Notes under the pieces: model-generated
The model's input: the letters and a program-made list of their open reading frames with translations, nothing else
The model's database searches: none
What the model was told of the DNA's origin: nothing
In this document: positions 31,901-34,900 of the stretch, piece by piece
How positions within the stretch are numbered: position 1 is the first letter of the stretch
How the letters are laid out: the number at the start of each line of letters is the position of its first letter
Position numbers and translations under genes: made by a program
Origin: Chiridota heheva
Lineage: Eukaryota > Echinodermata > Holothuroidea > Apodida > Chiridotidae
Direction: 5' to 3'
DNA: 64,000 nt
NCBI GenBank assembly: GCA_020152595.1
Contig: JAIGNY010000719.1
Coordinates: 262,501 to 326,500 of the forward strand

Positions 31901-34900
31901 AGCTGCAAAGAAAAAGGCTAATTTAAGTCTAACATGGCTTTCAGAATAGCTTCAAATTTGTCCCGATTTTGCACCTGACTCCTCAGGTGCAAAATCGGGA
32001 CAAAAAAAGGTTTTGATTTTTTTTTAAGGGAATGGGTTGTTAAGGATTTTACCTGCCATTTCCAAGAGTTTCATGACCAGGGATGCAAGAGTTTTTAAAT
32101 AAGAATCAAAATTTAACAAAATTTGAGGTGTTTTTCTATGCAAAATATCACTAATGACATCTACTGTATGGTTGTTATTTCAAGTGTGACCTATACAAGA
32201 TTTCTTATGAATTTCTAATGGAACTCACAACTTGCTGCAGTCAATTAATCAGCACCATTCTGGGAAGCAGCAAGAAGAAGTCTTAGAATTCATCTGATCC
32301 TGGAATGTATGGGTTGTAAGCAAGATGGATCCATATAGCCAGCTAGTCCATTAGTTAGGCCTGCCATCAGCAATCCATAACTAGATTAGACTTTTTAAGC
32401 CTGCAGTAACAGCAAAGCGAAGCAAGCGTCTAAAACAGATTACAGACCCTCTCTCGACATTTATTGGAAGACACCATTCACTTAAAAAACCTGTATGAAG
32501 AATCATTAAGGGTCACAGATATAACTAGAAATTTAGCACTCTGTTCATTCCCATCCCCAATATTATCTACATTAGAAATCCTAGGCCACTAAGTTATATC
32601 CTCAAACAATCTCTTTCACCATTGATCTGTATTGTCATTTGCATTCCAAACACTTCGGGGATCTATCCTCTGATCATTGCTTTCAGTTTCATGCTGGCTA
32701 AGTATTCACTGTTTGAGTTCTATTCAGCCGAGATTCACATTCCATCAATTTCTTTTCATGCATGAAGTCAATTATTTTGAATCTCTTTAATAAGAGAAAC
32801 CACTTGATCTGATTTTCTTAGACTTCAGAAAATTAATTGGATTTCTTTTGAGGCATGAGTTAATAGTTAAGCACATTACATTGGAAATTTTCAACTATAT
32901 AAGTCTTGACAGATCTCACCCTGATACATCCCTACCCCTCCATTTGGGCTCTTTCCCTGTTTCAATATATGTATCAAATTGTAATCACTTCCTTAAGCAG
33001 TAAAAAACAAAACAAATTTAATCAAAATCATTAGTTCTTGAGATATGATGATGGCAGACAGACAAAGGCAGGTGAAAATATAACCTCCATCCAACTTTGT
33101 TGGCGGTCCGGATCCCTCCATTCCCCTCACCCCCCCTCCCCCCTCACCCCCCCCCCTCCCCTCCCTCACACACACACACACAAACACACTTTTTCGAGAA
33201 AATTAAAAAAAATTGGAAAAACAAAAATTGCACATTGAAGTTGGTTAAATTCAAACACTTTCTTATGAGAGGGGGTAGGGATGGGGAGGGGGGGGGGGGA
33301 AGGTCTAGGACGTTCTCGGACCCCCTCACATTTTCAATGCTGGCTACCACTGCTTGGCGGAGGTAATAATAGGATATAATCCTGCATCTTTCAAGAAACA
33401 AGATAAAATGAAATAGTACATTATGATTCAAAGTCTTTCAAAGAGAAGAGGTTTGTAGTCTTTCTTTTGATGAATTAAGTACTTTGAGCAATTCATTCCA
33501 TGCAGTAAGTGAGCAGCTGCACAATAAAAGTGTTCTCCACACTTAATGTAGCTGACTACACACATGGTTAGGATCCAAGCTTTTTGAGAAATTTACCTCT
33601 TTGTTTCTCTTTAGGTAAAGAAGGAAGGATAAAAGTGTTCTCCGTACTTAATGTAGCCGACTACACACATGGTTAAGATTCAAGCTTTTTGAAAAACTTA
33701 CCTATTTGTTTCTCTTTAGGTGAAGAAGGAAGGTGATGCCTATGTTGTATCCTTGGAGATTGATGATGTGTCCATGGAAGATGCAGGCAGCTACAAAATT
33801 GTGGCTGAGAATAGCAGTGGAACCACGAGTGCCACAATTGCTCTTAAGTTTGGCGGTAAGAACTCTTCCTGAAGTCATTTCTTTACATCACTGTTAGGCA
33901 CCCTTGTTTTATGAATTATGTAAAGTATAAGTTGGAAATGTACAAATAAAGGATTTTGCATTTCTCTCATAATATTTCGGGCTCACACAATATACACATT
34001 TTTTACTGCATTTGATAACTCTTTTGCTTTCTTAGTTCTTTCATGGTCTCTCTCACTCCACTTACAGGTTCATTTTACCCTAACTCGAAGGTGGGTTACA
34101 GTATCATACAATGTGATTGGGATCATAATATTGATAAAACAAATACGACGAGTAAATAAAGTTTAATGAGTAAATGATAATTTTGTTTTGTTTTGTTTTT
34201 CGCAGATGAAGAAGAGGAAGAGTATACTCAAGCTCCGTAAGTTTTCTTCATTGTCTCATCTTTGTCATCATGTCATCTTTTGTTGATTTTGATCAAAATC
34301 ATTGACAGAAGGAAGAAATATTTTGCAATTTATTCAAACTATCGAAAAGGGAAAAAGTTTTTATGAGGTAGCACTTGGTTAAATTTCACAAAATTTTTGC
34401 AGTTTACAAAAAAGATGTAACCAAATAATAGAAACTTTATGAAACTGAACTTTTTGAAACAATTTGATACAAATTCAAATTTGTATCGAATCTTCATGTG
34501 ATTATGTTTTTTCACATTGAACAGTATGACTTCAAATGGAAGTACTTTCAGTGAATTAGAATAATGCAAGTATTATACATTTTTTTACCCAGTTGCCCAT
34601 TCCAACATTCAGGATCTCAATCCATCATAGAAATTAATCAAGGGTGTAGCCATAATTACATGCCAATGTCATAGTAATTGTAATCAGGGTTACCTGACAT
34701 TGCAACTACAGTTGTTATCATAAATTTGGAAGTAATGGCAATTGTAATTGAAGACATCCCATGTCTGTCATCACCCCATATCTGCTTTTACCCCATACAG
34801 TGCAGCGGATGGCATTGCACCCAACTTCACCATGAAACCCCAGATGAGGCAGTCAGAGGATGGAAGCAAGCTCACTATCGAGTGTGAGCTCAATGCCGAT

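Follow-up and report, generated by a model that had tools for sequence, protein, structure and literature searches.

In a giant Ig-repeat gene, which starts on the + strand within the 64-kb stretch of DNA analysed here (the window), a tandem duplication of 105 bp straddles the splice acceptor in front of the second coding exon. The upstream copy (33524-33628) comprises 91 intronic nucleotides and 14 former exon nucleotides, while the downstream copy (33629-33733) ends 14 nt inside the exon. Splicing probably proceeds mainly by direct joining of 19925, the last base of the first coding exon, to 33720, the upstream copy being a mostly silent decoy that arose from an ordinary duplication. On this account, such a duplication would have straddled the acceptor by chance, and 105 nt before the real acceptor it would have left a spare one that looks complete, with a candidate branch site, a pyrimidine tract, and an AG. 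The spliceosome would then join 19925 to 33720 in most cases. The upstream acceptor would see some low-level poison use, with the product removed by nonsense-mediated decay, and wherever it is engaged the 105-nt unit could leave either before or after the long intron to give the same mRNA. Direct joining is favoured because the whole exon and its donor directly follow the downstream acceptor only. Since the copied exon starts with GT, the unit itself is a GT...AG segment of exactly 105 nt (33615-33719), a putative nested intron, which would make the duplication tolerable. The products of direct joining, of recursive splicing through the upstream copy, and of an inside-out order in which the unit leaves first are identical by construction, a single 304-nt string encoding ...RYFTN/VKKEGDAY... 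(slashes mark splice points here and below). Because these three routes yield one mRNA, the duplication may be close to neutral, and this could explain its survival in a muscle-type gene. Acceptor choice and the order of removal are what we infer from the duplication, its signals, the reading frames, and the identity of the products, all of which are observed.

Gene context and the long intron

The first coding exon (19758-19925, + strand) encodes the first half of an I-set Ig domain and ends at the donor AAC/GTAAGT at 19926, while the second coding exon (33720-33855, + strand) encodes the second half and ends at the donor GCG/GTAAGA at 33856. A phase-0 intron of 13,794 nt (19926-33719) separates the two halves. 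Once joined, the exons give an uninterrupted I-set Ig domain that matches positions 1-89 of the 90 in Pfam PF07679 (E 4.2e-19) and has titin as its best solved relative. Further Ig exons are found at 34811, 40093, 43464, and 46980, Fn3-like exons from ~102 kb, and a kinase fragment near 199 kb that has twitchin as its best solved relative (1kob, E 2.1e-19). The Ig, Fn3-like, and kinase exons appear to be parts of one gene, which the kinase match and the domain order would make twitchin-like. An acceptor-like sequence, TTTCATTTAAAG (region 19730-19757), ends at 19741, 16 nt 5' of the ATG at 19758, and suggests a 5'-UTR exon upstream of 19758. The 13.8-kb intron described by the first-pass annotation is thus present, although its "exon 1" is the first coding exon and perhaps not the first exon, in which case "intron 1" would be intron 2.

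Several other repeats and remnants populate the region. Within the long intron, ORFs at 22044-22936 resemble fragments of a non-LTR element reverse transcriptase, their YADDTQ motif being presumably that of this enzyme, and ~590 bp at 23081-23672 consist of nearly pure short repeats (TATTAT, TCG, and TTA runs). Two abutting minisatellites, of a 25-bp and then a 30-bp unit, together occupy ~1.9 kb at 54430-56356. The window start adjoins 5,000 N bases (contig positions 257501-262500) in a genome assembly of 1.1 Gb and 3,744 contigs.

The duplication and its two acceptors

Repeat comparison and TRF both report the two copies, which lie head-to-tail without gaps, measure 105 nt each, and are identical at 96 positions out of 105. 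TRF scores the repeat at 357, whereas after dinucleotide shuffling of the surrounding 4 kb (100 replicates) the best score at period >= 25 was 60. Exactly 14 bases of exon 2 (33720-33733) were copied along with the intron end, as the first-pass annotation had read the repeat. The 9 differences between the copies, 8 transitions and 1 transversion, correspond to a JC distance of 0.091 (95% interval of the raw difference 4.0-15.6%) and look neutral, compatible with neutral drift. A core of 17 nt is unchanged between the copies, with a probability of P = 0.19 of staying so by chance, a value at which selection on the upstream acceptor is undecidable. An assembly artefact, the second copy being a haplotype remnant or a joining error, is very improbable: 9 differences in 105 positions, 8 of them transitions, represent a high divergence for two alleles, the head-to-tail junction is exact, and the flanks are not repeated. 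Moreover, a search of the 1.1-Gb genome with 33524-33860 returned one place among the best candidates scored, the window locus itself, and these candidates included neither a second haplotype nor a paralogue.

The duplication as such is ordinary, since two-copy repeats are common at the locus and the number of junctions falling inside one is close to expectation. TRF analysis of 259 kb, a single locus on which this rate rests, reports 32 two-copy rows (period >= 25, >= 85% match), some of them overlapping. Given the share of sequence that these cover, 0.67 of 45 assigned junctions would be expected inside a two-copy duplication, and 1 was found. Three of the 45 (33719, 63145, and 174055) lie within 10 bp of any TRF array, where ~6.6 are expected at 14.6% coverage. 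Repeats also abut splice sites elsewhere in the gene. A 29-bp two-copy tandem duplication (63083-63140, 96%) stops 3 nt before the AG assigned at 63144-63145, so that the sequence before this acceptor is duplicated and the AG itself is not. The donor-side counterpart lies beyond the window, where a 39-bp tandem array (window-relative 174050-174367, TRF 7.9 copies) begins as an Fn3-type exon ends and repeats the donor of that exon. The array holds 7 exact matches to GTGAGTTAAATGTACC, of which the assigned donor 174055 is the first, and this places several near-equal donors in a row.

Splice sites were scored with an acceptor matrix built from the gene's other acceptors, with a donor matrix, and by U1 pairing, using the general branch-site consensus and the 5' end of U1. 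Among 28 domain stretches viewed, 23 acceptors were kept, together with 23 donors in the first scoring and 22 afterwards, all picked by homology and consensus without transcripts, which makes the matrices somewhat circular. Donor 63257 (scored -7.5) was left out as misassigned. U1 pairing of the 22 assigned donors ranges from -3.2 to -12.2 kcal/mol, with a median of -6.9.

The upstream copy retains the features that had been read in it: the pyrimidine tract TTTGTTTCTCTTTAG, which is identical in the downstream copy, an AG at 33613-33614, and GTAAAG immediately after (33615-33620). It also holds a candidate branch A at 33595 (TTTAC), 19 nt before the G of the AG, and the downstream copy has its counterpart at 33700 (CTTAC), at the same distance from the AG at 33718-33719, which is followed by GTGAAG and which every productive route needs. 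With matrix scores of 6.7 upstream and 6.2 downstream, any advantage in strength is small and lies with the upstream acceptor; the real downstream one is the 11th lowest of the 23 gene acceptors. As many as 27 of the 723 AG sites in the 13,794-nt intron score at least as high as the spare acceptor, and strong unused-looking acceptors are therefore not rare. GT directly follows the acceptor in 3 of the 23 listed (33719, 43459, and 63145), and GTAAAG also occurs at one assigned donor (AAG/GTAAAG, 149647). The complete exon, a GC step, and a shorter exon (136 nt to the 33856 donor, against 241 nt from the upstream acceptor) speak for the downstream acceptor, while the upstream one has in its favour a shorter distance to the exon 1 donor and a tract that is a little better. 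GC content is 33% over the 91 nt after the 14 exon bases of the upstream copy and rises to 46% in exon 2. The step is not peculiar to the exon, since the 500 nt preceding the duplication reach 43.6% GC. The signals alone cannot decide which acceptor is used.

Poison, recursive and inside-out use of the upstream copy

Should the upstream acceptor be used together with the exon 2 donor, the reading frame GTA AAG AAG GAA GGA TAA would end at the in-frame stop at 33630-33632. Translation thus bears out the VKKEG product and the poison frame of the first-pass annotation. Substantial use of this kind, giving a 241-nt exon and lowering output through nonsense-mediated decay as a regulated poison acceptor, is rather unlikely. 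It is suggested by the early stop, by an upstream acceptor equal in matrix strength to the real one, and by candidate branch sites equidistant in both copies, but the differences between the copies fit neutral drift. Substantial upstream use may nevertheless be compatible with the locus, as that acceptor is slightly stronger and nearer to the donor, and an exon of 241 nt is not unusual. The earlier claim of a decoy or poison acceptor therefore stands as to competence, both the acceptor signals and the early in-frame stop being present, while its use is deduced from the sequence. As a decoy or a site of low-level poison use, the upstream copy is in any case more likely to act than as a recursive splice site.

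Classical recursive splicing, the other role proposed in the first-pass annotation, would join exon 1 to 33615, rebuild a donor (AAC/GTAAAG), and then splice onward to 33720. It is possible and not favoured; we regard it as quite improbable. The layout is as described: AG directly precedes GT after a run of pyrimidines, the intron that contains this Y-tract and YAG/GT is 13.8 kb long, and the minimal search motif of human lariat work, Y5+N0-4YAGGT (PMC10156609, in the portion available), is present. The 13,794-nt intron contains 4 instances of this motif, and the 259 kb contain 41 on one strand and 44 on the other. The size of the intron does not count against recursion, since the same portion of that study lists human recursive sites in introns of 0.2 kb and longer. 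The AG/GT layout itself arises automatically when the acceptor of a GT-starting exon is copied.

Several other properties depart from those of described sites. The rebuilt donor has A at +5 and C at -1. None of the 22 assigned donors pairs with U1 as weakly as it does (-1.9 kcal/mol), and it is far from the strong rebuilt donor of a recursive site. The matrix is kinder than U1 pairing, placing the rebuilt donor at 5.2-5.4, near the bottom and about level with the left-out score of 5.2 for the donor that ends exon 2 (33856). The acceptor is middling for the gene and no stronger than ordinary, its near-identical real counterpart scoring close to it. In flies, by contrast, recursive acceptors exceed ordinary ones in strength, and single sites lean toward the intron midpoint, according to the available text of PMC6110457. 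Here the site lies at 99.2% of the intron, 105 nt from its end, so that the long intron would hardly be shortened. In fly ratchet points, which carry ultraconserved SA/SD motifs, the cryptic exons measure ~50 nt and their downstream donor is generally weaker than the ratchet donor (PMC8605326, as excerpted). At the present locus the ranking may be the opposite: the best candidate for a cryptic-exon donor after the upstream acceptor (ATG/GTTAAG, 33672, -4.2 kcal/mol), which would give a 57-nt exon, is weak for the gene, beating only the assigned donor at -3.2, yet would outdo the rebuilt donor.

As a ratchet-like site, the upstream copy belongs to a small minority, and this is expected from copying a real acceptor before a GT-starting exon. 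When the site's own scores serve as thresholds, the site itself being copied from a real acceptor, 2 of 982 AGGT sites on the + strand of the 259 kb (the site itself and 122149) reach both its acceptor and its hybrid-donor matrix scores, as do 3 of 1311 on the - strand. If the donor matrix is replaced by U1 energy, 3 AGGT sites on the + strand and 14 on the - strand reach the values of the site.

A third order of events, absent from the first-pass annotation, is that the segment 33615-33719 leaves the unspliced RNA first, the donor TAG/GTAAAG being joined to the downstream acceptor, and that the long intron is then spliced onto the joined upstream acceptor and exon 2, making the unit a nascent nested intron. 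If the unit is ever spliced, removal before the long intron looks easier than after, on account of U1 energies of -6.9 and -1.9 kcal/mol. In unspliced RNA, TTTAG/GTAAAG at 33615 pairs with U1 at exactly the median of the 22 assigned donors, its matrix score is 7.65, and the rebuilt acceptor would keep its pyrimidine tract and the full exon 2. There is also a precedent in the potato RdRp gene, where a boundary duplication produced a new intron (PMC4974935, in the part of the article available). However, sites that are not donors in the gene model score alike, TAG/GTGAAG at 33720 (-7.0) and AAG/GTGATG at 33733 (-6.7), and on account of these two control sites the inside-out order was given less weight. 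Furthermore, 34 of the 760 GT sites in the intron, 33615 included, pair with U1 at least as well, and the smallest spacings from donor to acceptor in the assigned set run from 244 to 342 nt, so that 105 nt may be short for the gene. We consider this order doubtful, with little probability of being the main route.

A broader and speculative proposal, to which we likewise attach a low probability, is that duplicating the acceptor of a GT-starting exon automatically makes a self-repairing nested intron: the unit would be excised first and the upstream acceptor handed to the intact exon. Acceptor duplications in essential genes would in this manner be fixed silently and become the birthplace of zero-length recursive sites, and the locus would represent a living intermediate. 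The literature surveyed does not describe how zero-length recursive sites originate, and none of the matches listed, judged by titles and abstract beginnings, derives recursive sites from tandem duplication. A search for recursive splicing in mollusc gave no literature match, and one for duplicated splice sites or acceptor-spanning duplications gave none at the search thresholds set. A classic experiment is said to have addressed duplicated splice sites, exon context, and proximity. The locus provides a clean natural substrate, with a near-identical acceptor pair 105 nt apart and distinguishable lariats that could reveal the order of splicing. Splicing of the unit by itself would illustrate a one-step origin of a zero-length recursive site from an ordinary duplication; otherwise the locus would be a natural test of exon context deciding between almost equal acceptors.

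Comparison with known systems

The zero-nucleotide ratchet points of fly and human (PMC8605326, PMC6110457, and PMC10156609, all in partial text) resemble the upstream copy in having an acceptor joined directly to a donor-like sequence in a long intron. In contrast, the present site combines a weak rebuilt donor, an ordinary acceptor, and a position at the intron end, a cryptic-exon donor candidate exceeds the rebuilt donor, and the origin as a copy of a real acceptor is evident. The fungal stwintrons (PMC7138796 and PMC8469720, in excerpt) share with the candidate the consecutive removal of nested or abutting introns, possibly derived from splice-element duplication. The fungal types are donor-interrupted (PMC7138796, same excerpt), while here it is the acceptor that was copied, and in an animal gene.

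Also comparable is the Rogers-type gain of introns through AGGT duplication (reviewed in PMC3443670; Drosophila cases in PMC2891723). According to the accessible part of the Drosophila study, a duplicated proto-splice site can at once make the intervening segment an intron of the duplication's size, with nonsense-mediated decay as a backup. As in these cases, so far as the two texts reach, two AG/GT copies bound a duplication-sized segment that could be removed without protein change. The duplicated AGGT lies inside an exon there, whereas the AG/GT copied here is the working acceptor of a long intron that was already present.

The nearest precedent in anatomy appears to be the potato RdRp gene (Ma et al. 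2016, PMC4974935; the following comparison is drawn from part of that article), in which a duplication across the intron 1-exon 2 boundary gave a new intron with 106 supporting RNA reads. In both cases the acceptor, the pyrimidine tract, and a putative branch site (TTTAC in potato, TTTAC/CTTAC for the two copies here) were inherited, a possible donor came from a small piece of former exon, and the copies differ at a similar number of positions, 10 in potato and 9 here. The potato intron is documented by RNA-seq reads across the new junction and by phylogeny, whereas the present one is a candidate proposed from sequence. The potato donor (GTAAG) lies inside the former exon piece, and an exon stretch was inserted; at the present locus the 14-nt piece has a single GT, at its very start, and the added exon would measure 0 nt. 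The locus seems to be a new case of a tandem duplication across an intron-exon boundary, in which the 105-nt unit is a candidate new intron.
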